DNA of 64,000 nucleotides from an uncultured Lachnospiraceae bacterium (GTDB lineage: Bacteria > Bacillota > Clostridia > Lachnospirales > Lachnospiraceae): positions 48,916 to 112,915 of the forward strand of contig CANOVJ010000006.1 in NCBI GenBank assembly GCA_947570615.1, given 5' to 3'. Shown one piece after another: positions 45,867 to 57,306 of the stretch. Position 1 is the stretch's first letter. Each line of letters starts with the position of its first letter. The position numbers and the translations under genes were made by a program. Below the pieces are notes generated by a model that worked only from the letters and a program-made list of their open reading frames with translations, did no database searches and was not told the origin of the DNA.

Positions 45867-46070
45867 CAGTTTTCGAAAATTTTCTTAAATTAAAATTTTA
45901 CCTGAAGTGAAAAGCTTTTTCCATTTTGAATAAGTGGAAATGACGGGGCGTAAACAGATAGATTTTGTATTCTGAATATGGTATACTGATCGCAGAAGGA
46001 AGCTCTCTCACTTTTAACCGTCTGAGGGACAGGCTCACAGATCCTGATAAGATAAAGGAAAGATTGGACA

Positions 46071-47363
46071 ATGGGAAACAGAAAAGCTGCTTATGATTCA
46101 CTGACCCGGCTGCGGGATCGGAAAACTTTTTTTGAGGATGTCAGAGAATACCAGGCCACGGGCGGACAGGCCCACATTATTATGGTTCAGCTCACGCGGC
46201 TGATCAATGTCAACCGCCAATACGGCGTCGGAGCCGGCGACGGGCTGCTGAAGGAGATCGCAGGCTATCTGGCGCAGGCCCACCCGGATTACAGGGCCTA
46301 CCGGATCGCCAACTCAAGGTTTATGCTGCTTGGGCCGCAGTGCCGCCAGCGTCAGGCGGAAGGGATGGCCGCCCTTTTACATAAAAGGTTCGAACAGGAC
46401 TGGCGGGTTGTCCACGACGAGGGAAGCTGCGAGGCGAAGGCAAAGGCGCATCTGGTACATTTTTTTGCGCAGCCCGGGGATTCGGCGAACGACCTGCTCG
46501 ATAAAATGAATTATGCGATGACGGTTTTCCCCGTCAGGGGAAGAAGCGGCGTGCTCTTTTTTGACGGGGAGATGTGCGATGCCCTGACGCATAAGCAGTA
46601 CGTGATGGGAGAGGTCCGTTTTGCGGTGGAGCAGAAAACCTTTCAGATGTACTACCAGCCGATTATCGACTGCAGGGAAAATGGGTTTGTGTCCGCGGAG
46701 TCGCTGATCCGCCTGGTGGGTCGGGACGGCACTTTTATCAGTCCGAATGAGTTTATCCCGATGGCCGAGGAAAGCGGGCTCATCGACGACATAAGCTGGA
46801 TCGTTCTGGAAAAGGTGTGCGAATTTCTGGGAGAGCATCCGGCGCTTCCCATTAAAACCATTTCCGTGAACATGACCGGGCAGCAGGTTCTCAACCCCGT
46901 GTTCGAGGAGCGGATCAGCGAGAATCTGGCGCGGTATCACGTGGCGGGGGAGCGGCTTCGCATCGAGATCACCGAGCGCACGGTCACGGAGAATTTCGAT
47001 AAGGTGAAGCAGGTGATGGAGCGTCTTGGGGAAAAGGGGATCCGCTTCTATCTGGACGATTTCGGCACGGGCTATTCCAATCTTTCCAGCATGCTCTCCC
47101 TTCCCTTCGAGGTGATCAAGTTTGACCAGTCCCTGATGCGGATTATGATGGAGTCGGAAAAGGGGCTGCTGACCATCGATCTTCTGGCGCAGATCATGCA
47201 TGTAAACGATTATATTATTGTGGCAGAGGGGATCGAGACCAGGCAGCAGGACATGGCGGCCAGAGAGCGGAAGCTGGATCGGATTCAGGGATACTACTAT
47301 TCCAGACCGCTTCCGGGCGGGGAGCTGATCCGGTTTCTTGAGCAGGAAGCCCGCAGGGAATAA
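46071..47363 (+). CDS. EAL-domain cyclic-di-GMP phosphodiesterase with degenerate GGDEF
   Basis: A 430-residue cytoplasmic protein. Residues about 1-160 are a GGDEF-like domain lacking the GGDEF site (GVGAGDGLLKEI; RIANSRFMLL). Residues about 180-425 are an EAL domain in which catalytic residues look kept: ESLIRL for EAL near 210, SVNMTGQQ, EITERT, LDDFGTGYSNLS, EVIKFDQS and VAEGIET. It should hydrolyse c-di-GMP to pGpG. There are no membrane segments or sensor domains. AAGGAAAG precedes the ATG. A TGG-TATACT extended -10 lies at 45979-45987. Confidence 0.9.
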   Translation: MGNRKAAYDSLTRLRDRKTFFEDVREYQATGGQAHIIMVQLTRLINVNRQYGVGAGDGLLKEIAGYLAQAHPDYRAYRIANSRFMLLGPQCRQRQAEGMAALLHKRFEQDWRVVHDEGSCEAKAKAHLVHFFAQPGDSANDLLDKMNYAMTVFPVRGRSGVLFFDGEMCDALTHKQYVMGEVRFAVEQKTFQMYYQPIIDCRENGFVSAESLIRLVGRDGTFISPNEFIPMAEESGLIDDISWIVLEKVCEFLGEHPALPIKTISVNMTGQQVLNPVFEERISENLARYHVAGERLRIEITERTVTENFDKVKQVMERLGEKGIRFYLDDFGTGYSNLSSMLSLPFEVIKFDQSLMRIMMESEKGLLTIDLLAQIMHVNDYIIVAEGIETRQQDMAARERKLDRIQGYYYSRPLPGGELIRFLEQEARRE

Positions 47364-47392
47364 CAGGGGGCGGACAGAGATAAGGAAAGGAC

Positions 47393-47416
47393 GGGCAGGG
47401 GCAGAAGTCCCTGCCC
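47393..47416. repeat. Hairpin repeat, family D copy 3
   Basis: GGGCAGGG (47393-47400) pairs with CCCTGCCC (47409-47416) and is followed by GATT, as in the copy at 1170. It ends just before the -35 of the next promoter and after the EAL gene. Confidence 0.65.
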
Positions 47417-47419
47417 GAT

Positions 47420-47468
47420 TTGACAGATGCAGACTATTGTGATAGTATTATATAACTACTGAAATAGT
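47420..47468 (+). promoter_or_regulatory. Promoter and double operator of the BlaI-type operon
   Basis: TTGACA (47420-47425) with TAGTAT (47443-47448) at 17 bases. Dyad 1, ACTATTGTGATAGT (47433-47446), covers spacer and -10; dyad 2, ACTACTGAAATAGT (47455-47468), follows 22 bases centre to centre. The sites match the half-site style (ACTA/TAGT) of BlaI/MecI operators, so self-repression is expected. A sister arrangement lies at 50102-50154. Confidence 0.8.
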
Positions 47469-47520
47469 CTGAGAGACGGCATTCCGGGACGGTATTGCGT
47501 CGGAAAGGGGTTGATACCAT

Positions 47521-47877
47521 ATGATAAAGCTGTTTGATTCGGAGCGGAAGGTTATGGAGGTGCTCTGGCGGGAGGGGGATCTTCCGGCGGGGCAGATCGT
47601 GAAGATATTAAAGGAGGAAACCGGATGGAACCGGAACACCACCTACACCGTGATCAAAAAGTGCGTGGATAAGGGCGCGGTGCGACGGACGGAGCCGGGC
47701 TTTGTGTGCAGCGCGCTGATCTCCAGGCAGGAGGTGCAGGACTATGAGACGGAGGAGCTGATCGACAGGATGTTTGACGGCTCCAGGGAAAAGTTTTTTG
47801 CCGCTTTCCTGGATGGAGGCAAGCTCTCCCGGCAGGAGGTGGAGCAGCTCAAAAAGATGATCGACAGGCTGGAATGA
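47521..47877 (+). CDS. BlaI/MecI/CopY-family repressor
   Basis: A 118-residue dimeric winged-helix repressor. The N-terminal DNA-binding part (FDSERKVMEVLWREGDLPAG, then TGWNRNTTYTVIKKCVDKGA) and the C-terminal dimer helix (DYETEELIDRMFDG..KKMIDRLE) fit the family. It should bind the dyads at 47433 and 47455 and those at 50115 and 50141. It is followed 46 bases later by an M56 membrane protease, the usual partner that inactivates BlaI after sensing a ligand. The start ATG at 47521 follows AAAGGGG. Confidence 0.92.
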   Translation: MIKLFDSERKVMEVLWREGDLPAGQIVKILKEETGWNRNTTYTVIKKCVDKGAVRRTEPGFVCSALISRQEVQDYETEELIDRMFDGSREKFFAAFLDGGKLSRQEVEQLKKMIDRLE

Positions 47878-47923
47878 GAAGCGAGGGGTTCGGGCGCAGG
47901 CTCCGGCCCATGGGAGAGAAGAA

Positions 47924-49459
47924 ATGAATCTGATTCAGATGAGTGTGACAGCGGGAATTCTGATCGCCGGGATCACGGCTTTCCGCTTCCTGTTTAATAA
48001 CAGGGTTTCGAGAAGGGTTATGGTGCTTCTCTGGGAGATTGCGATTGTGCGGCTGATTTTCCCTTTCTGGCTGCCGCTTCCCTTTCGGGGGATCGGTGAT
48101 CTGGCCACCGCCACGGTGTCAGAGGAGAAGGTGGAGATCATGCAGGTCACGGTATCGGATGTCGGACCGGAGCTGATGGGCTGGCAGATTACGCTGGGAG
48201 CCGGGGGGAAAGGCCTGGACAGAGAGGAGAGCTTTTGTGTGACGGAGGATACGGCCGTCGCGGAAGAGGCGGGCACAGGCAGAATCCTGTGGGCGGTGTA
48301 CGCTCTGGCGACGTCGGCCATGACGGCGGGCTCTTTGTATCGTTACATGCGTGACCGGCAGCAGTTCCGGGAGGGACTGCCCATGCCGGAGCGGGAGAAA
48401 GCGCTTCTTCTCGGGATGCTGGAGGAGAAGGAAGCAGAGAGGCTGGGACGGGTGAGGTTTTGTATTTCAGACCGCACCGCATCCCCTGTGACCTGCGGAA
48501 TCTTCCGGCCTGCCATTGTATTTCCAAAGGGGATTTCTCACAGTACGCAGCAGGAGGTCGTCTTCTGGCTGCGGCATGAGCTGGTGCATATCCGGCATCA
48601 CGACAATCTGAAAAAAATTATCGCCCGCGGCGTTTTGTGTCTGCACTGGTTCAATCCGCCTGTGTGGGCGATGTATGTGTTTTTTAACCGGGACATGGAG
48701 ATTCTCTGCGACGAGACCGTGGTGCGAAGCAGAAGGGAGAGCCGTAAAGACTATGCCCTGGCGCTGCTTTCCATGGCGGAGAAAAGGAGTCTGGGCTTTC
48801 AGACCGGAATGGGCTTTGGAAAAAATGCGGTGACTGAGAGGATCACCGCCGTTATGAAGCTGAAAAGGATGAATGCCCTCACGACTCTGGCGGCGGTGGC
48901 AGCGGTGACGGCGGCGCTCACGGCCCTGGGCTCTCATTCCGTATCCTTTGCCGCAGGCGTGTCCGGGGCGACAGAGTGGGCCCAGGTCCCGGGAGGCGAG
49001 GAGACGCAGGATTACCAGATCACAGTGACGGCAGATTTCCAGGAGGCGACCACCGCGGAGGCGGTCGTTGACAGCGCATATGTGGTGGAGAGCGATACGT
49101 CGTCCACCGCGGCGGAAACCTCCGTCGCGGAAGAGTCCTCCGCCATGGCGCAGGGCGGAGGGCAGACCCAGGAGACCGGTATTGCACAGATTATGGAGGA
49201 GTACCGGGAGCTGGGGATCAGCGTCACCGTTTCCGGAGACGATTATCAGCTTTACTATGAGGGCGAGCCAGTCTTCTTTTTTGCGGACAACAGGATACCG
49301 GAGGAGGAGGGATTTTCGGGCAGACTGTTTTTGCGCCCTGCCAGCCGGAGGAACGGCATGACAGGCGTTGTCACCGTTTGTGGAAGCGACGGGAAAATAA
49401 GCGGGGTAAGACACCTTTCCCGGGAGGAGTCGGAGGCTTATGCCGACAGATGGAGATAA
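47924..49459 (+). CDS. BlaR1/MecR1-like M56 membrane metallopeptidase with atypical sensor
   Basis: A 511-residue membrane protein. The N-terminal half has about four membrane segments (residues 6-20, 31-48, 122-140, 328-348) around the zinc site RHELVHIRHHDN near residue 218, with FNPPVWAMYVFFNRDMEILCDE downstream shown here by its core CDETVV. BlaR1 has a penicillin-binding sensor at the C-terminus; this protein instead has about 160 extracytoplasmic residues: a serine/threonine/alanine-rich linker and a small beta domain (ISVTVSGDDYQLYYEG). So its signal is probably not a beta-lactam acylating a serine. GAGAGAAG precedes the ATG. Confidence 0.88.
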   Translation: MNLIQMSVTAGILIAGITAFRFLFNNRVSRRVMVLLWEIAIVRLIFPFWLPLPFRGIGDLATATVSEEKVEIMQVTVSDVGPELMGWQITLGAGGKGLDREESFCVTEDTAVAEEAGTGRILWAVYALATSAMTAGSLYRYMRDRQQFREGLPMPEREKALLLGMLEEKEAERLGRVRFCISDRTASPVTCGIFRPAIVFPKGISHSTQQEVVFWLRHELVHIRHHDNLKKIIARGVLCLHWFNPPVWAMYVFFNRDMEILCDETVVRSRRESRKDYALALLSMAEKRSLGFQTGMGFGKNAVTERITAVMKLKRMNALTTLAAVAAVTAALTALGSHSVSFAAGVSGATEWAQVPGGEETQDYQITVTADFQEATTAEAVVDSAYVVESDTSSTAAETSVAEESSAMAQGGGQTQETGIAQIMEEYRELGISVTVSGDDYQLYYEGEPVFFFADNRIPEEEGFSGRLFLRPASRRNGMTGVVTVCGSDGKISGVRHLSREESEAYADRWR

Positions 49460-49496
49460 GACTGGAAGCTTCAGATGATGGAAATATTTTCGATCC

Positions 49497-49524
49497 GGAG
49501 ATTTGCGCCGGGCACAAAATCTCC
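49497..49524. repeat. Hairpin repeat, family E copy 1
   Basis: GGAGATTTGCGCC / GGCACAAAATCTCC inverted repeat between the M56 gene and the GNAT gene. The copy at 56065-56092 shares the ends and the preceding TTTTC-ATC. Confidence 0.6.
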
Positions 49525-49562
49525 TGGACAAAAAGTCGCTGGCTTTGGGATGGAGCATGAAA

Positions 49563-50069
49563 ATGAATTTCAGAATTGCCTCCATGGGGGATCTGCCGGA
49601 GATAAAGGCTGTGTACCGGCAGATTGTCAGAAGGATGGAGGAGGATCAGATACAGATATGGGATGATATCTATCCCTGCGAATTTTTTGAGGAGGACATC
49701 AGAAGGGAGCGCCTTTACCTTATGAGGGAGGGGACGGAGATTGTCTCCGCCTTTGCGCTGTGCGAATCCGGTCCGGGTGATGAAGGCGTGGAATGGGAGA
49801 GCCCCTGTGCCAGGGCGTTGTATCTGGATCGTCTTGGGGTGAATGTGGATTTCAGGGGAAGAGGCGCGGGCGCTCTGGCGCTGGCCGCAGCCATGGAGCG
49901 GGCCGGCGCTCTGGGAGCGGATTATCTGCGTCTGTTCGTGGTGGATCAGAACACCCCCGCCATTCATCTTTATGAAAAGAACGGTTTCGTTCGGGCCAGG
50001 GGCGTTTATGATGAGGTGATCGACAAGGAGCTTGTGCTTCACGAATACGGGTACGAAAAAAGGCTCTGA
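49563..50069 (+). CDS. GNAT-family N-acetyltransferase
   Basis: A 168-residue acetyl-CoA-dependent transferase. The acetyl-CoA pyrophosphate loop is VDFRGRGAGALALAAAM near residues 97-113, and NTPAIHLYEKNGFVRARG is the usual C-terminal signature. ATG 49563 is chosen because GGAG lies seven bases upstream; the ATG at 49557 is too close to it. The gene lies between the M56 gene and the operator-controlled ABC operon. Its substrate is unknown; a resistance role would suit the context but is not shown. Confidence 0.82.
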   Translation: MNFRIASMGDLPEIKAVYRQIVRRMEEDQIQIWDDIYPCEFFEEDIRRERLYLMREGTEIVSAFALCESGPGDEGVEWESPCARALYLDRLGVNVDFRGRGAGALALAAAMERAGALGADYLRLFVVDQNTPAIHLYEKNGFVRARGVYDEVIDKELVLHEYGYEKRL

Positions 50070-50101
50070 CAGATAAGGCAGCAGTGAGGATAAAAAACTG
50101 T

Positions 50102-50154
50102 TTGACACAGAATGACTATTGTGATAGTCTTTATTTACAGACTATTGCAATAGT
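50102..50154 (+). promoter_or_regulatory. Promoter and double operator of the ABC operon (BlaI-type sites)
   Basis: TTGACA (50102-50107), 17 bases, TAGTCT (50125-50130). Dyad 1, ACTATTGTGATAGT (50115-50128), is identical to the one at 47433-47446; dyad 2, ACTATTGCAATAGT (50141-50154), is a perfect palindrome. Centres are 26 bases apart. This strongly suggests control by the repressor encoded at 47521. Confidence 0.82.
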
Positions 50155-50252
50155 CATTTTGCGTGGAAGAAACCGCAGGGGGAGTCATTCCCTGCAGGAA
50201 ACCAACGGCTCTCCGGGCGGGATATCCATAATCAGGGAAAGGAGTCTTGAGG

Positions 50253-52727
50253 ATGAAAAAAAGATCTGTCAGAAAAATACTGTGTCTGCTCACCGCCACA
50301 GCGCTGATGCTGGCGTCGGGCTGCGGCGGGCAGGACGTTCCGGGGGAGGGGACAAAGGGAGCCCAAAAGAGCCCTGCGGGGGAGGACAGCGCCCGGGGAG
50401 AGGAGGACGCCCAGGGGCAGGAGGGCTCCATGGGGCGCTATATGGAGGAGGAAATCGACCTGACCGATGTCCTGGAGCAGCCCGGCGGCCTGTGCATGCG
50501 CCCGGACAAAAGTCTGACGATCACGGACCGCTATCGGAATCTGCAAAGCTCGCAGGATCAGGGCGTTTCCTGGGCGGAGGAGAAAAATGCGTGGCTGGAG
50601 AATAAAATGGAATCCGCCTTTTTCCTGGACGTTCAGATGGCGCCGGACGGCACGCTGGCCGTGATTTACGAGGATTATGAGGAGGATAATCCGGGGATTG
50701 AGGCAGAAACCGCAGGACAGAGTGAGGAGGAAACCGGCGGGCAGGAAGGGGAAACCGGCGGGGCAGAGCCCGCGGAGGACGATATGGAGGATGCGGGGGA
50801 TTCGGAGGAAAACGAATCCGCCTTTTCCCTGGATCCGGACTGCGCCCTCATCCGGCCGGACGGAACGGTGATTCCCGTGGCCTTTTCCGTCCCTGAGGAG
50901 GAAATGTATCCGAACCGCTTCTGGATCTCGGATTCCGGCAGAATCTTCTTTACCGCCCTTGGGGAGAGTGTCTATGAGGTGTCTGAGGACGGCAGCAGCG
51001 AGCTGTTTCTGGAGGCCGGGGGGAGTGTGCAGCTTGTCCGGTTCGCGGGGGAGCTGATGATCCTGGACGGCTATGATTTCGCAGCTCCCCTCCTGTATGA
51101 CATGGAAAAAAAGGAGTATGTGGAGGATCAGGCTCTTGCGGATTTTGTGCAGGAGAACTACGCCGACAGGCAGTTCAACGGAGGAAGCTGGTATGATCTG
51201 TATCTTTTCCCCGGAGAGGAGGGGGAGATTTATCTGGCGGGAAGTAAGGGGCTGCACCGTCATGTGATCGGCGGGCAGGATGTGGAGCGGCTCATAGACG
51301 GGGAGCTGTCCAGGCTTGGCAGTCCCAGATACGGCATAAAGGACATGGCGCTGCTGGAGACTGGGGAGTTTCTCGCCCTCTTTGCCAGCGGGAAGGTGGT
51401 GCGGTTTACCTGGGACCCTGACGTGGCGTCCGTTCCTGACAGAAGGCTTAAGGTTTACAGCCTTCAGGAGAGCTATGATCTGCGGGTGGCGGCCAGCGCC
51501 TATCAGGTGGAAAATCCGGAGGTCTTCGTGGAATATGAGGTGGGAATGGAGCAGGGCGGCGTATCCGGCCGGGACGATGCGCTGAAAAAGCTCAATACAC
51601 AGATCCTTGCGGGGCAGGGGCCCGATGTGCTGATGCTGGACGGACTTCCCGGGGATTCCTACATTGAAAAAGGCCTTCTTCTGGAGCTGAGTGATTTTCT
51701 GGAGGAGTTCGGGGAGCAGGAGCTGTTCATGAATCTGATTAAGGCCGCCGGGAAGGACGGCGCTGTCTACGGGATTCCCACCCAGATCGCATTTCCTGTG
51801 CTTCTGGGAAAGGAGGAGTACGTCTCCGGTATGCGGGGACTTGACGCGATAGCGGAGGGCGTGGAGCGGCTGCGGGCGGACAATCCGGGGAAGAACCTGC
51901 TGGGAGTCTGCTCTGAAAAAGGGATCATGAAGGTCTTTTCGGTTGTCAGCGAGAGCGCATGGCTGAAGGAGGACGGCGGGATGGACCGGGAGGCGATCTC
52001 TGAATTCCTGACACAGACCAGGCGGATCTATGAGGCGCAGATGGACGGGATCGATCAGAAAAGCCTGGACTACTGGTATTCCTCCGCCGAGATCGCCGCA
52101 CGGGATTACGGGGAGGACTGGGAGTACGATATCTCCTTTTACGGAGGGATGTCCCTGGAATATGTGGGAGGGCGGCTGCAGCTCCTGGCAGGACTGACCA
52201 CCTACCCTTACGGCTATTATGATATAACCTCGATTCACAAGGCGAAGGGCTTTGAGGACGCCAGGCTGATTCCTCTGGAGGGGCAGTGCAGTAAGGTGTT
52301 TCTCCCCGGAACCGTGCTGGGGATCAGTCAGGCCTCCTCTCAGAAGGAGCTGGCCATGGATTTCCTTGAGCTGTTTCTGGGAAAGGAAAATCAGGAGGCG
52401 CTGGGCGGCTTTTCCGTCAACCGTCAGGCGATGGAAGCGCTTTTTACGCCGGAGGACGGATATGTGGGCGAGGACGGGGAGTACGGCGCCATCGCCATGG
52501 TGGATGAGGACGGTGTGGAGACAATGCTCAACATTTATCTCCCGGATCAGGAGGAGATGGATACCTTTTACGGCTGGATGGAGAACTCGGATACGCCCTG
52601 TATCGAGGACAGGGTTCTGGAGGAGGCGGTGTTCGAGGAGGGGGAGAAGTATTTCCGGGGAGAGGCTGACCTGGAGCAGACCCTGGACGCGGTGGAGCAG
52701 AGACTTGAGATTTATATGGCGGAGTAA
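50253..52727 (+). CDS. Extracellular solute-binding lipoprotein with N-terminal propeller-like region
   Basis: An 824-residue lipoprotein: signal peptide with lipobox ASGC (Cys about residue 25), a low-complexity acidic linker (residues 130-180, rich in E, G, T), a beta-rich region of about 350 residues with repeated short blade-like units (ISDSGRIFFTALGESVYEVS; APLLYDMEKKEY; GEIYLAGSKGLHRHVIGG), and a C-terminal family 1 solute-binding domain (about 395-800; LNTQILAGQGPDVLMLDGLP, then YGIPTQIAFPVLLGK). Ordinary sugar-binding proteins are about 400-450 residues, so the N-terminal half is extra. The ATG at 50253 follows AAAGGAG. First gene of the ABC set. Confidence 0.88.
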   Translation: MKKRSVRKILCLLTATALMLASGCGGQDVPGEGTKGAQKSPAGEDSARGEEDAQGQEGSMGRYMEEEIDLTDVLEQPGGLCMRPDKSLTITDRYRNLQSSQDQGVSWAEEKNAWLENKMESAFFLDVQMAPDGTLAVIYEDYEEDNPGIEAETAGQSEEETGGQEGETGGAEPAEDDMEDAGDSEENESAFSLDPDCALIRPDGTVIPVAFSVPEEEMYPNRFWISDSGRIFFTALGESVYEVSEDGSSELFLEAGGSVQLVRFAGELMILDGYDFAAPLLYDMEKKEYVEDQALADFVQENYADRQFNGGSWYDLYLFPGEEGEIYLAGSKGLHRHVIGGQDVERLIDGELSRLGSPRYGIKDMALLETGEFLALFASGKVVRFTWDPDVASVPDRRLKVYSLQESYDLRVAASAYQVENPEVFVEYEVGMEQGGVSGRDDALKKLNTQILAGQGPDVLMLDGLPGDSYIEKGLLLELSDFLEEFGEQELFMNLIKAAGKDGAVYGIPTQIAFPVLLGKEEYVSGMRGLDAIAEGVERLRADNPGKNLLGVCSEKGIMKVFSVVSESAWLKEDGGMDREAISEFLTQTRRIYEAQMDGIDQKSLDYWYSSAEIAARDYGEDWEYDISFYGGMSLEYVGGRLQLLAGLTTYPYGYYDITSIHKAKGFEDARLIPLEGQCSKVFLPGTVLGISQASSQKELAMDFLELFLGKENQEALGGFSVNRQAMEALFTPEDGYVGEDGEYGAIAMVDEDGVETMLNIYLPDQEEMDTFYGWMENSDTPCIEDRVLEEAVFEEGEKYFRGEADLEQTLDAVEQRLEIYMAE

Positions 52728-52734
52728 GGTCCGG

Positions 52735-53601
52735 ATGAAAATGGAGAGAAAGAAAAGAAAATATTTTTGCCTGTTTGTGCTGCCGGGTTTTGTGGGGATC
52801 ACGGCCTTTGTCCTGCTTCCCTTTCTGGATGTGGCGAAGCGTTCCTTCACCACGGCGGTGACGGGGGAGTTTAACGGGGTGAAGAACTACCAGAGCATTT
52901 TTCAGAATCAGGCCTTTTTGCTGGCGGTGAAAAATACGGTCCGGTTCACCCTGGTGTGTATCCCCATCCTGGTGGGGGCGGGTCTTGTGATGGCGCTGAT
53001 GCTGAGCTCCCTGAAAAAGAAGGGGTTTATCAAATCCCTCTGTCTCTTTCCTCTGGCCATGCCCACGGCCACGGTGGTGATGGTGTGGAAGCTGGTCTTC
53101 TATAAGCAGGGGTTTCTGAATCTGCTTCTCACCCGCCTGGGGCAGTGGACAGGGCTGTATGGGGAGGTACATATGGATTATCTGGGCACGGGGGCGGCTT
53201 TCCAGGTGCTGGTGGCAAGCTATGTCTGGAAAAATATGGGCTATACGATGATTCTCTGGCTGGCCGGGCTCTCGGGGATCTCTGCGCAGATGATCGAGGC
53301 GGCCCGGGTGGACGGGGCGGGAGGCTGGCAGCGGCTGTGGCGGATCGTATTGCCCAACTTAAGGGGGAGTTTGTTTACCATCGTGATCCTGTCCTTTTTA
53401 AACTCCTTCAAGATTTACAGGGAGGCCTATCTCACGGCGGGGGCCTATCCCGATAAGAGCATTTATCTTTTGCAGCACCTGTTCAACAACTGGTTTGTGA
53501 ATCTGGAGCTGGACAAGATGGCGGCGGCAGCGGTGTGTACCGGAGGCGTTCTGATGGGGGCGATCCTGCTTCTGCAGAGGCTGTGGGAGGGATCGGAATG
53601 A
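52735..53601 (+). CDS. ABC permease, MalF/UgpA-like
   Basis: A 288-residue membrane subunit of an import-type (CUT1) ABC transporter, with six hydrophobic segments beginning FCLFVLPGFVGITAFVLLPF and the cytoplasmic EAA loop EAARVDGAGGWQRLWRIVLP near residues 188-207, which docks the ATPase. Eight bases separate it from the binding-protein gene, and its stop overlaps the next start (ATGA). No ATPase gene is nearby, so it must use a shared one such as an MsmK/UgpC type encoded elsewhere. Confidence 0.9.
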   Translation: MKMERKKRKYFCLFVLPGFVGITAFVLLPFLDVAKRSFTTAVTGEFNGVKNYQSIFQNQAFLLAVKNTVRFTLVCIPILVGAGLVMALMLSSLKKKGFIKSLCLFPLAMPTATVVMVWKLVFYKQGFLNLLLTRLGQWTGLYGEVHMDYLGTGAAFQVLVASYVWKNMGYTMILWLAGLSGISAQMIEAARVDGAGGWQRLWRIVLPNLRGSLFTIVILSFLNSFKIYREAYLTAGAYPDKSIYLLQHLFNNWFVNLELDKMAAAAVCTGGVLMGAILLLQRLWEGSE

Positions 53602-54488
53602 AAAAACGGCCTGTTTTTACGGAGAAGCTTTTGAAGCTGCGAAGACCGGCGGGCCGCGCCCTTCTTACTGTGGTATTGCTTTTGCCCGCTCTGACGGTGA
53701 TTCTGCCTGTTCTGCTTCTTTTGTCGGGGGCTCTGATGGACGCCTGGGAGCTGGGCGGATACATCGGCACGGTATTTACGGACGGAACGGAATTTATCCG
53801 GTGGAAATTCCTGCCGGATTACCCCTCCTTTGCAAACTATGGAAGGCTGCTGTTTGAGACGCCCCAGTTTTTCGTGCTGTTCTGGAATTCCATGAAGCTG
53901 GTCGTCTGTATCCTGGCGGGACAGCTCGCAGTGGCGGTTCCGGCGGCCTGGGGGTTCGCGGTGTATCAGACCAGGGCAGGCCGGGGACTGTTTGCCCTGT
54001 ATGTGGTGCTGATGCTTCTGCCCTTTCAGGTGACCATGCTCTCCAGTTATCTGGTGCTGGGCAGGCTGGGGCTTTTGAATACCCATGGGGCGATCATTCT
54101 GCCCGCGGTGTTTTCCACCTTTCCGGTGTTCCTCTCCTACGGGGGATTTCGCAGTATTCCCTGTCAGATGCTGGAGGCGGCCCGGGTGGACGGGGCGGGG
54201 GAGATCACCATATTTGTACGGCTGGGCCTTCCCCTTGGAAAGAGCGGGCTTTTGTCCGCCATGGTGCTGGGCTTTCTGGAATACTGGAATCTGATGGAAC
54301 AGCCCATGGCCTTTCTGGAGGATAAGGCCCTCTGGCCCCTGTCCCTGTATCTGCCCCAGATCACCTGGGGGCAGGCGGGGTTTGCATTCTGCGCCAGCGT
54401 GATCACCCTGATCCCGGCGGCGTTTGTGTTTGTGATCGGGCAGGACTATCTGGAGCAGGGGATTATTTATTCGGGGCTGAAGGAGTAG
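53598..54488 (+). CDS. ABC permease, MalG/UgpE-like
   Basis: The 296-residue partner permease with six membrane segments (first ALLTVVLLLPALTVILPVLL) and EAA loop EAARVDGAGEITIFVRLGLP near residues 194-213. The ATGA overlap with the upstream permease gives coupled translation. A typical MalG-type end is present (FVIGQDYLEQGIIYSGLKE). The substrate is unknown; carbohydrate is the family default. Confidence 0.9.
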   Translation: MKKRPVFTEKLLKLRRPAGRALLTVVLLLPALTVILPVLLLLSGALMDAWELGGYIGTVFTDGTEFIRWKFLPDYPSFANYGRLLFETPQFFVLFWNSMKLVVCILAGQLAVAVPAAWGFAVYQTRAGRGLFALYVVLMLLPFQVTMLSSYLVLGRLGLLNTHGAIILPAVFSTFPVFLSYGGFRSIPCQMLEAARVDGAGEITIFVRLGLPLGKSGLLSAMVLGFLEYWNLMEQPMAFLEDKALWPLSLYLPQITWGQAGFAFCASVITLIPAAFVFVIGQDYLEQGIIYSGLKE

Positions 54489-54522
54489 CCTGCGTTCTCT
54501 GGAAAGGAGCGTGGTTTTAATT

Positions 54523-55824
54523 ATGAAAAAGGTTGTGGCAGGATTCGGTATTTTTCTTGCGTTTATGGTTGTATGTACGCTGGTGTCAAAAAGCGTGTAC
54601 GCTTACCGGCTTCCCATGGTGGGCGTCGTCACGCCGGAGTCAAAATATGTGGAGCATAAGGTGGAGGCGCAGGGGATTGTGGTCGCCGGGGGCGAGAAGC
54701 CTTTCACGTATCTGCCGGGCCTTCGCATCGCCTCCATGCCGGTCCGGGTGGGAGATCGGGTGGAGGAGGGCGACGTGCTCTTTCAGATCGATCTGGAGGA
54801 TCTTGGGGAGATGATGCAGGAGAAGGAAAGGGAGATCCACAGGCTCTCCCTCCAGGTGGATACCATCCTGGAGAACCGGGCGATTCAGGAGCAGAAAAAG
54901 GAGCTGGAGCTGGCCAGGGCAAGGGAGGATTATGACACCGCCGCCAGATTACAGGATACCCAGGTGGGCCGGGCGATGGAGAGCTATGTGCAGGCGGAAA
55001 ACGACCTGGAGGAGGAGGCCGGACAGGGGCAGGACGACGCCTTAAAGGACGCTCTGCAGAGCGCGGCCTACGGGGAGGCGGACGCGAAGGCGCAAAGGGA
55101 TGAGGCGCTCAGGCAGGCGGGACGGAAGGTGGAGGATATACTTCTGCCGGATGACGCCACCGCCGACCTGGAGACGGCGCGGCTGGAGATCTCCGCAGTC
55201 TCCGACGGCCTGAGCAGTCTGCAGCAGATTGCGGAGAGCCAGGGCGTGGTCAGAGCCCCCTTTGGCGGCGTGATCACACAGATCCTGGTGGGAGCGGGGG
55301 GAAGGACCGGGGATACGGCGCTGATGCTGATCTCGGACGATACCCTTCCCTGCCGGCTTAAGGTCACTCTGGATAAGGAGCAGAAAAAATATATCAGCTT
55401 GGGGGATCCGGTCTCGGTAAAGCTGGAGGGAGAGAAAAAGGAGCTGGAGGAAGAGGTGGCCTATCTGGCACAGAGCCGGGAGTCCTCCGAAATCTACGAG
55501 GCGCTGACAGAGCTCCCGGAAGGGGTTGGGATACCGGGCATGTCCGGCAGTATCTCCCGCTCGGAGCAGGGAGAGAGGCACAGACTCTGCCTGCCGGTGT
55601 CCGCACTGCACGAGAAGGATAAACGGTATTCGGTGTATGTGTTAAAGGAGCGGGAAGGGATTCTGGGTCAGGAGTATTATGTGGACGAGGTAAGCGTCAG
55701 GGTTCTGGATCAGAACGATAACTGGGCGGCCATCGAGGAGGGGGCGCTGGATACGCAGAGCAGAGTGATCGTCTCCGCCACGAAGGAGATCCGCACCGGG
55801 GAGACGGTCAGGTGGGAGGAGTGA
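54523..55824 (+). CDS. HlyD/RND-type adaptor (membrane fusion) protein
   Basis: A 433-residue protein with one N-terminal membrane segment (VVAGFGIFLAFMVVCTLV) and an extracytoplasmic adaptor body. A split lipoyl-like domain (APGG-type strands: VVAGGEKPFTYLPGLRIA; VRVGDRVEEGDVLFQIDL and VVRAPFGGVITQILVGAGG) flanks a long helical hairpin (about residues 100-215), followed by a beta-barrel. Such adaptors normally serve exporters (MacA, HlyD), not sugar importers. It follows the permeases by 34 bases in the same direction and looks like the last gene of the set. Ribosome site AAAGGAG is a little far from the ATG. Confidence 0.85.
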   Translation: MKKVVAGFGIFLAFMVVCTLVSKSVYAYRLPMVGVVTPESKYVEHKVEAQGIVVAGGEKPFTYLPGLRIASMPVRVGDRVEEGDVLFQIDLEDLGEMMQEKEREIHRLSLQVDTILENRAIQEQKKELELARAREDYDTAARLQDTQVGRAMESYVQAENDLEEEAGQGQDDALKDALQSAAYGEADAKAQRDEALRQAGRKVEDILLPDDATADLETARLEISAVSDGLSSLQQIAESQGVVRAPFGGVITQILVGAGGRTGDTALMLISDDTLPCRLKVTLDKEQKKYISLGDPVSVKLEGEKKELEEEVAYLAQSRESSEIYEALTELPEGVGIPGMSGSISRSEQGERHRLCLPVSALHEKDKRYSVYVLKEREGILGQEYYVDEVSVRVLDQNDNWAAIEEGALDTQSRVIVSATKEIRTGETVRWEE

Positions 55825-55909
55825 GGATTTGCAGGGATGACCTTCTTTCTATGGGAAAGCGGCGGATTTGGGATCTGCACCGCAGTATATGTATTTTCGG
55901 AAAGCGGCG

Positions 55910-55938
55910 TTGAAAACGGCGGCAAAGTAAGGTATAGT
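55910..55938 (+). promoter_or_regulatory. Promoter upstream of the methyltransferase gene
   Basis: TTGAAA (55910-55915), 17 bases, TATAGT (55933-55938). A long leader of about 180 bases with hairpins follows before the gene. Confidence 0.65.
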
Positions 55939-56039
55939 AGAGGGAGTCGAGATATAAAACAACGGGCAGCGCGCCCTGCGGGTCAGCTTACGGTATCAGC
56001 CGATGATATGCTCTGCAGAGGGCGCCGTCAGGAGGACAA

Positions 56040-56092
56040 GATTGAAAATTAAAATTTTCAATCTGGAGATTTGTGCTACGCACAAAGTCTCC
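56040..56092. repeat. Two palindromes, including hairpin repeat family E copy 2
   Basis: GATTGAAAATT (56040-56050) pairs with AATTTTCAATC (56053-56063); then GGAGATTTGTGC (56065-56076) pairs with GCACAAAGTCTCC (56080-56092). The second is related to the element at 49497-49524. Both sit in the leader of the gene at 56127. Confidence 0.65.
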
Positions 56093-56126
56093 GGGATTTT
56101 GAAAGGAGTATGGTTATAAATATGAT

Positions 56127-56771
56127 ATGATTTCCACACAGATAAAAAATGTTGAGCTGGAGTTCGAGACAGACCCTTTGGGTTTCTCGCCGCACAGGAT
56201 TGATGCGGGGACGCTGGCCATGCTCTCCGTCACGGATTTTCATCCGGGAGAGCGGATTCTGGACCTGGGCTGCGGCTACGGCGTGGTGGGGATTCTGGCG
56301 GCGAAGCTGGCCGGTCAGGAGAATGTGATTCTGTGCGATATCTCCGAAGGCGCGGTGGAAAGAGCCAGAGCGAACGCCCGGCGTAATCAGGTGCCGGAGT
56401 TGGAGATCCGGGTGAGCGACGCCTTTTCCGGTGTGCCGGAGAGGAATTTTGCTCTGATTCTGTCCAATCCGCCCTATCACGCGGACTTTTCCGTGCCCAG
56501 AAGGTTTATCGAGGAGGGCTTTAAAAGACTGGCTGTGGGCGGAAGGATGGTCATGGTCACCAAAAGGCTGGACTGGTACAAAAACAAACTGACCGCTGTT
56601 TTCGGCGGCGTGAAGGTATACGAGATAAACGGGTATCATGTTTTTGTGGCGCACAAGCGCGCCTCCACGGTGAAAAAGAAGGATAAGACGGCGGGGAAGC
56701 TCTCGAAGAAGCTGCAGAGGAAGCAGGGCAGGAAAGAAAACAGAAAAAAGGCCATGAAGGCGGCAGAATAA
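56127..56771 (+). CDS. RsmC-like class I SAM methyltransferase
   Basis: A 214-residue methyltransferase with SAM motif I DLGCGYGVVGILAAKLAG near residues 51-68 and catalytic motif ILSNPPYH near residues 112-119, the N-P-P-Y type used for amino methylation of guanine or adenine. Closest in layout to the catalytic half of RsmC (16S rRNA m2G). The C-terminal 40 residues are extremely lysine-rich (KKKDKTAGKLSKKLQRK), likely for RNA binding. The ATG at 56127 is 18 bases from GAAAGGAG; an ATG at 56110 would start only a seven-codon frame (MVINMI) ending on the gene start, a possible coupling leader. Confidence 0.85.
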   Translation: MISTQIKNVELEFETDPLGFSPHRIDAGTLAMLSVTDFHPGERILDLGCGYGVVGILAAKLAGQENVILCDISEGAVERARANARRNQVPELEIRVSDAFSGVPERNFALILSNPPYHADFSVPRRFIEEGFKRLAVGGRMVMVTKRLDWYKNKLTAVFGGVKVYEINGYHVFVAHKRASTVKKKDKTAGKLSKKLQRKQGRKENRKKAMKAAE

Positions 56772-56808
56772 AATAGATGATCGCCTGGCGCCGGAGGGAG
56801 GACGAAAG

Positions 56809-57306
56809 ATGGCAAAACAAAAACTGATTATTATTACAGGCTCGCCTTGCGTGGGCAAGACCACTGTCACACAGGAGCTCTTTACTTCTTATGAGAACAG
56901 CGCCTTTTTTGACGGCGACTGGGCATGGTGCGTCAACCCGTTTTCACTCAATGATCCGAGACTGCGAAACGGTGACAAAACAATGTCCTTTGCATTATCT
57001 ACCTATCTGAATTCGGGCTTTGACTATGTTTTCTTTTCGTCGGTGGTCGTTGGGGATAAAGCAATCCGCGAGGCGATATTGAAGGATGTGACTGCAAAAG
57101 ATTACGCTGTGGTGGGCATTACCCTGACCTGTTCTGAGGAAACCTTGCGGGAGCGTCACAAAAAACGCGGAGATGCAAATGAATGTTCTTTTTTCTGGCT
57201 GCATTTAAAACCGTATGAGGGCGATCATGTGATCAACACAGATCACAAAAGTGTCCGGCAAATCGTTGAGGAAATGAGGGCCGTGATAGACGGCGGGAGA
57301 GAATGA
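56809..57306 (+). CDS. P-loop nucleotide kinase-like protein
   Basis: A 165-residue protein with Walker A GSPCVGKTTVTQEL near residues 11-24 and a layout like small-molecule kinases (acceptor aspartate in FFDGDWAWCVNPF; lid-type arginines in TLRERHKKRGD). It could phosphorylate a nucleotide, antibiotic or metabolite. GGAGGGAGGAC precedes the ATG. Its stop overlaps the next start (ATGATGG). The base composition is a little more AT-rich than its neighbours, suggesting the pair may have been gained together. Confidence 0.75.
   Translation: MAKQKLIIITGSPCVGKTTVTQELFTSYENSAFFDGDWAWCVNPFSLNDPRLRNGDKTMSFALSTYLNSGFDYVFFSSVVVGDKAIREAILKDVTAKDYAVVGITLTCSEETLRERHKKRGDANECSFFWLHLKPYEGDHVINTDHKSVRQIVEEMRAVIDGGRE

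Follow-up and report, generated by a model that had tools for sequence, protein, structure and literature searches.

Matching double dyads at a BlaI/M56 regulatory pair and at an import-type ABC transporter operon in a Lachnospiraceae genome

We analysed a 64,000-nucleotide stretch of DNA (the window) from an uncultured Lachnospiraceae bacterium, contig CANOVJ010000006.1, which carries a BlaI-type repressor gene (47521-47877, + strand) directly followed by the gene for an M56 membrane metalloprotease (47924-49459, +). A GNAT acetyltransferase gene (49560-50069, +) lies between the M56 gene and a second operator, behind which four further genes of the + strand encode a solute-binding protein (SBP) lipoprotein (50253-52727), two permeases of an ATP-binding cassette (ABC) transporter (52729-53601 and 53595-54488) and a membrane-fusion protein of the HlyD/MacA type, the final gene of the operon (54526-55824). 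The same dyad, ACTATTGTGATAGT, stands in the promoter of blaI and in that of the transporter operon. We consider it likely that an autoregulated BlaI represses both blaI-M56 and the four-gene operon, and that M56 cleaves BlaI on cue.

An earlier note on this DNA, made from the sequence alone, had placed identical dyads at 47433-47446 and 50115-50128, each overlapping a TTGACA-N17-TAGT promoter. The sequence confirms both points, and no further exact copy of the dyad exists anywhere in the genome (4,047,824 bases, 112 contigs). The blaI-M56 promoter (47420-47448, +) consists of TTGACA at 47420-47425, a 17-nt spacer and TAGTAT at 47443-47448; the first dyad begins 7 nt after TTGACA, occupies the spacer and runs into the -10 box. 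The predicted promoter of the transporter operon (50102-50130, +) is built in the same way, with TTGACA at 50102-50107, 17 nt, a weak -10 box TAGTCT at 50125-50130 preceded by TGA, and its dyad in the spacer, again 7 nt after TTGACA. The note had also reported a second dyad behind each promoter. Both are present: the one at blaI (47455-47468, ACTACTGAAATAGT) is imperfect, with 3 mismatches, while the one at the transporter operon (50141-50154, ACTATTGCAATAGT) has 2 mismatches and is a perfect palindrome. A search of 46000-57000 for Rfam RNA elements gave none at gathering scores.

With up to 3 mismatches allowed, the dyad has 8 matches in the window against an expected mean of 1.81, and none of 100 shuffles equalled this number. 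Searching the 4.05 Mb genome for TTGACA-N7-ACTATTGTGATAGT with a ceiling of 3 mismatches returned the two exact sites and one right at that ceiling; the reversed control returned none. Single imperfect dyads are another matter. At up to 2 mismatches the whole genome holds 13 matches, compared with 12 for the pattern read backwards, and since they are as common as the reversed control they carry no weight alone and we dropped them as evidence. To that extent the dyads could be chance, or the symmetry of a promoter or terminator, a reading that we take up again below with the conservation data.

The first three genes of the operon encode the parts of a sugar-type (CUT1-like) ABC importer, namely an SBP and two PF00528 (BPD_transp_1) permeases, of which permease 1 is MalF/UgpA/GlcT-like and permease 2 MalG/UgpE-like. 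By sequence, CbpC is the nearest solved relative of the SBP; the match covers profile positions 647-790 at E 1.3e-11. The SBP is a fusion protein, with a mostly-beta, propeller-like N-terminal domain (~60-392) joined to a sugar-type solute-binding protein (~397-824). Its AlphaFold model, built with 14 sequences (mean predicted local distance difference test score, pLDDT, 73.4), shows a signal region and the SBP fold from residue 397; the N-terminal domain contains 24 strands and two helices, with a low-confidence insert at 144-192, and on this model it may be a beta-propeller. No convincing Pfam family was found for this domain or for the C-terminal domain of M56. The earlier note had counted five target genes. 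As read from the gene arrangement, the putative target operon is four genes, 50253-55824, because about 300 bp with two promoter-like matches set it apart from a methyltransferase gene.

The repressor belongs to PF03965 (Penicillinase_R; 90.5 bits, cutoff 22.6), with GWNRNTTYTVIKKC as the region of its recognition helix, and it aligns to structures of MecI (residues 5-115) and of BlaI (4-62 and 6-115). Its scores stay below the cut-offs of the curated NCBIfam models for BlaI (62.8 vs 180 and 19.6 vs 250), MecI (33.1 and 32.3 vs 250) and CopY (63.6 vs 121.95). The metalloprotease matches PF05569 (133.8 bits, cutoff 31) and has the HEXXH and EXXXD motifs; H218-E219-x-x-H222, D227, E259-x-x-x-D263 and Y277 are invariant in all seven aligned orthologues, and D227 and Y277 are the counterparts of the Asp and Tyr of the BlaR1 active site named in PMC9834060. 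The likeness ends with the protease half. The last 178 residues have no Pfam match even at E 10, no BlaR1-type penicillin-binding domain was found in the C-terminal part, the M56 profile matches BlaR1 structures weakly (E 5e-4) with chain residues 21-263 as the sole significant stretch, and the blaR1_generic model gives 69.5 bits, below its cut-off of 400. Judged by its sequence, M56 resembles BlaR1 as a protease and is no BlaR1 by its sensor part. Its last 96 residues match only M56 proteins of its own lineage among the open reading frames (ORFs) in hand, in which the loci from other genera are short and cut the M56 genes, so that most C-termini there fall outside the comparison.

The closest textbook relatives are the staphylococcal BlaI-BlaR1 and MecI-MecR1 systems, which are autoregulated and likewise combine a Penicillinase_R repressor with a neighbouring M56 metalloprotease that carries HEXXH and EXXXD. 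The pair described here differs from them: no penicillin-binding sensor domain was found in its M56, its probable target is a transporter, its scores stay under the NCBIfam cut-offs for BlaI, MecI and BlaR1, and its half-site is GACTAY, the staphylococcal one being TACA/TGTA. The copper repressors of the CopY/TcrY kind belong to the same superfamily, and CopY gave the top score of all NCBIfam repressor models; CopY systems are not known to have an M56 partner. These copper repressors, and reportedly also a mycobacterial BlaI, extend the family beyond beta-lactamase and mecA.

The earlier note had described BlaI families as known for beta-lactamase and mecA control, which is too narrow in view of the BlaI regulons of Clostridium thermocellum (PMC8457756). 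There, DNA affinity purification sequencing (DAP-seq) gave the motif GACTAT for BlaI_1845, and four copies of it form two inverted-repeat pairs before its own operon; electrophoretic mobility shift assays were done on single repeats, and the two pairs appear to the authors to be a strict requirement. The present system shares with the BlaI_1845 and BlaI_0696 regulons the half-site (GACTAT for BlaI_1845), two inverted-repeat pairs per target and, on the proposed reading, an autoregulated blaI-blaR1 type of operon and a very small regulon. It is unlike them in its probable target, since the section on C. thermocellum lists blaI-blaR1 operons and hypothetical or peptidoglycan genes and names no import-type ABC operon. 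No paper on BlaI/M56 control of an import-type ABC operon appeared among the literature matches listed (open PMC papers, by title and start of abstract); the proposed switch is of a known kind, with a target that has no counterpart among those matches. BlaI-like genes are numerous in these genomes and easily read as beta-lactam resistance; here, one of them is tied to an import-type operon.

Using the SBP as the query, we examined 37 genomes of the genus, the window's own genome (G000) included. Matches of 52-64% identity were found in 19 genomes besides its own, and 18 of them carry the double dyad upstream. The exception, G172 (locus L123, 55%), has no dyad and a two-component system upstream; its SBP lies just outside the dyad group in the SBP tree, and its best blaI match reaches 56%. 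Conservation of the dyads together with the genes had been set beforehand as a test, and 19 of 20 genomes with an SBP of at least 52% identity keep the dyads, the one that does not being also without a close blaI. This upholds the link between repressor, operator and ABC genes that the earlier note had drawn, with the operon reduced to four genes.

The strict double dyad occurs at 30 sites in 24 of the 37 genomes (reversed pattern: 0). Nineteen sites precede the SBP gene and one precedes the gene of permease 1 in G185, where the SBP gene is absent between M56 and the permeases (L199) and the operators stand directly before permease 1. Six precede the blaI orthologue (G000, G150, G157, G164, G181 and G183), two a blaI paralogue (G175 and G177), and two a 181-aa ORF that lies about 9 kb (G151) or 2 kb (G155) from a blaI paralogue. 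The arrangement is strict at the transporter, where TTGACA stands exactly 7 nt 5' of the first dyad, and this dyad ends in the TAGT of the -10 box, in all 20 distinct dyad-bearing promoters. Over all promoter rows the 7-nt spacing holds in 33 of 44; the other 11 are blaI promoters, in most of which the search caught the second dyad of the pair as its first consensus match. All 18 relative loci of the dyad group reach the full double-dyad score of 20/20, and the 40 others score 15 or less. A BlaI orthologue of at least 79% identity is encoded in 20 of the 37 genomes and an operator-bearing transporter operon is present in 20, with both in 18 (17 with the SBP and G185 without); Fisher's exact test gives p 1.7e-6 for this co-occurrence, in a sample whose species are not independent. 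A dyad in some form is found at the own promoter of all 20 blaI orthologues. In G157 and G164 the dyad-bearing operon is absent and the operators are retained at blaI; at these loci (L197 and L198) three BlaI-M56 pairs are clustered, the middle pair being the orthologue with operators. No ORF labelled GNAT was found between M56 and SBP in the surveyed relative loci.

We then scanned 348 genomes of the family blindly with the pattern TTGAC-N8-dyad-N6-18-dyad. It matched in 19 genomes: G000 and G150 contributed two sites apiece and other genera 17 in total, and the reversed control matched nowhere. In the other genera, 16 of the 17 sites lie directly 5' of a blaI gene; the remaining one (L229) precedes a 181-aa ORF whose adjoining ORF is weakly M56-like (26.6 bits). 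The absence of the reversed pattern from both the 37 and the 348 genomes and the fixed 7-nt distance to TTGACA speak against chance or promoter/terminator symmetry, and because of the conservation that reading is untenable; we give it next to no credence. As a separate observation, the 181-aa ORF behind a TTGAC double dyad (L200:15490-16139, L201:10577-11227 and L229) has a signal-like N-terminus and no Pfam family.

Around the computed sites, their conservation, their association with blaI and the transporter operon, and the grouping of the dyad-bearing SBPs in one clade, we infer the following scheme of binding, repression and cleavage. BlaI would be an autoregulated repressor, two dimers of which would sit on two adjacent dyads with the half-site GACTAY. 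Since the dyads fill the spacer between -35 and -10 and the start region of both promoters, bound BlaI would block RNA polymerase at blaI-M56 and at the SBP-permease-permease-HlyD operon 2.7 kb downstream. M56 would detect an extracellular cue and cleave BlaI, upon which the sensor pair and the transporter would rise together. The permeases would probably use a shared MsmX-like ATPase encoded elsewhere. The operator sites are directly testable.

Several observations weigh against this scheme. The consensus promoter scan detects the blaI promoter (10/12 matches, TG before the -10 box) and misses that of the transporter operon, whose -10 box TAGTCT has 3 of the 6 consensus bases; this putative promoter is called from its -35 box, the TGn ahead of the -10 box and its conservation. 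There is no ATPase gene within 50253-55824. A MalK/MsmX-like ATPase gene elsewhere in the genome (G000:C14:10079-11185; OB_MalK, 59 bits), with no adjoining permeases and flanked by genes for a PucR-type regulator and a DUF624 protein, is a candidate for a shared ATPase. At the aligned MecI cleavage site (Asn101-Phe102) our repressor appears to keep Phe at P1' and has Ala, not Asn, at P1. The strict double dyad is present at only 6 of the 20 blaI orthologues; twelve of the others have one consensus dyad and two (G184 and G170) have variants such as GACTGCTGTGATAGTC. The BlaIs of L206, L208, L209 and L200 combine the recognition helix typical of the dyad group with promoter sites of the form AAGACTG..TAGT.

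Finally, 17 genomes have no blaI that reaches 79% identity, and two of them, G180 (78% complete) and G182 (96% complete, 8% contaminated), carry an operator-bearing operon; there, a different regulator has to be supposed, or else a gap in the assembly. The same two genomes would suit the alternative that another regulator binds the dyads and blaI is merely nearby. Against it, a blaI gene directly follows 16 of the 17 blind matches in other genera and 8 of the 30 sites within the genus, and the same half-site has been shown for a BlaI (PMC8457756); we regard it as very improbable. In G182, an element of about 250 bp with an inverted repeat was seen by eye between the operators and the SBP start (L107:10281-10533).

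On another reading, the dyads could be BlaI operators and M56 could respond to general envelope damage, without ligand-cued cleavage of BlaI, the transporter being a pump for defence or repair whose HlyD-type protein counts for more than import. BlaI/M56 pairs elsewhere respond to beta-lactams, according to PMC9834060 and PMC7593790. In other genera a gene of cluster c5 follows the HlyD gene at 15 loci; the single member scanned resembles MacB_PCD weakly, its 23.6 bits staying below the cutoff of 27. At 12 loci a neighbour falls in a cluster from which the single member scanned is a D-alanyl-D-alanine carboxypeptidase. However, M56 shows no penicillin-binding domain, the permeases and the SBP are of the sugar-import kind, and the c5 gene occurs in none of the dyad-bearing loci surveyed. 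Since M56 is by its sequence no beta-lactam sensor, cell-wall stress is unsupported as the signal, and we find the envelope-damage explanation doubtful beside a cue-driven switch of an importer.

The same four genes, SBP-permease-permease-HlyD, also occur in Lachnospiraceae modules linked to two-component systems, for example L085 in the same genome; those have an OmpR-type response regulator and a histidine kinase and no dyads, unlike the BlaI/M56 module. We compared 58 relative SBP loci, the better-scoring matches with the paralogue of the window's own genome included, 18 with dyads and 40 without. A response regulator from a single OmpR-type family is encoded no more than 3.5 kb from the SBP gene at 34 of the 40 loci without dyads and at none of the 18 with them; members of this family have best matches of 56-99.6% to one another. 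Among the six without a nearby regulator (L090, L091, L095, L129, L131 and L137), a pair of similar size lies farther off or flanks the module on its other side at L090, L091 and L129, and L131 stops at the contig end. By Pfam, the pair of L124 consists of Response_reg/Trans_reg_C and HisKA/HATPase_c proteins. Many of the two-component-linked modules in the genus, among them L124 (10830-11447) and its kin (cluster c7, 15 loci), have an unassigned gene, encoding about 170-220 aa, placed between the regulator and SBP genes.

In a tree of the SBPs (59 rows, quick method, LG+G4), one branch with a Shimodaira-Hasegawa-like approximate likelihood-ratio test (SH-aLRT) value of 100 splits off the 19 dyad rows, the window included; this clade adjoins L123, L129 and L131. 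In G159 and G169 a dyad-bearing copy coexists with a close one that lacks dyads. The pattern suggests that the BlaI wiring probably replaced a two-component system. The tree is unrooted, and the direction from two-component system to BlaI would be the more economical reading, not proof. We had considered L107 and L118 as transitional states with both regulators and rejected this: their response regulators share no more than 31-32% identity with the module's own family, and the row nearest to the L107 regulator (50%) is another regulator of L087 that is unrelated. We take both two-component systems to be unrelated neighbours.

Sensing by a proteolysed repressor would stand here where most relatives have a phosphorelay, beside the same transporter module. 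A probable exchange of regulators of this kind is interesting to specialists and not astonishing. More tentatively, and with somewhat less than even confidence, we suggest that in one lineage the module moved from a two-component neighbour to a BlaI/M56 proteolytic switch, and that M56 there acquired an extracytoplasmic domain, lineage-specific and not penicillin-binding, with which it reads the substrate of the module itself. If true, BlaI/M56 would be a general device by which gut Clostridia sense nutrients or envelope ligands across the membrane, and a cell could hold several mutually insulated repressor-operator pairs.

BlaI-like genes have 7 matches in the window's genome and up to 13 in a relative. 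All 16 BlaIs from the blind scan have the helix pattern WNxNTTYTxIKxC, while in four further BlaI copies of G000 its place is taken by WERTTVLT, WKKSTTYT, WKRTTAYT or WSPKTIQT and the promoters, where visible, have other sites. A simple code from helix to operator is weakened by the four AAGACTG..TAGT promoters mentioned above: one helix pattern pairs with two types of site, so the helix alone does not set the operator. In clade 2 of the BlaIs (the own copy on contig C22 and its kin), whose members might conceivably serve G180 and G182, five of six promoters (L206 of G180, L208, L209, L200 and own C22) have AAGACTG..TAGT..ACTAC..GTCTT sites or close variants, and the sixth promoter examined, L207 of G182, has no TTGAC. 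The G000 BlaI copies are perhaps a set of insulated repressor-operator pairs. Different dyads, for example AAGACTGTAGTAGT, GTCTAATAATGTTAGAC, GTCTATAGTTGTAGAC and ATGTAATATTTTAATTATTACAT, were seen at or near the promoters of the other copies on contigs C22, C11, C4 and C17 (L210, L212, L214 and L213). In the window, a gene for a GGDEF-EAL protein (46071-47363) lies immediately 5' of the blaI promoter.

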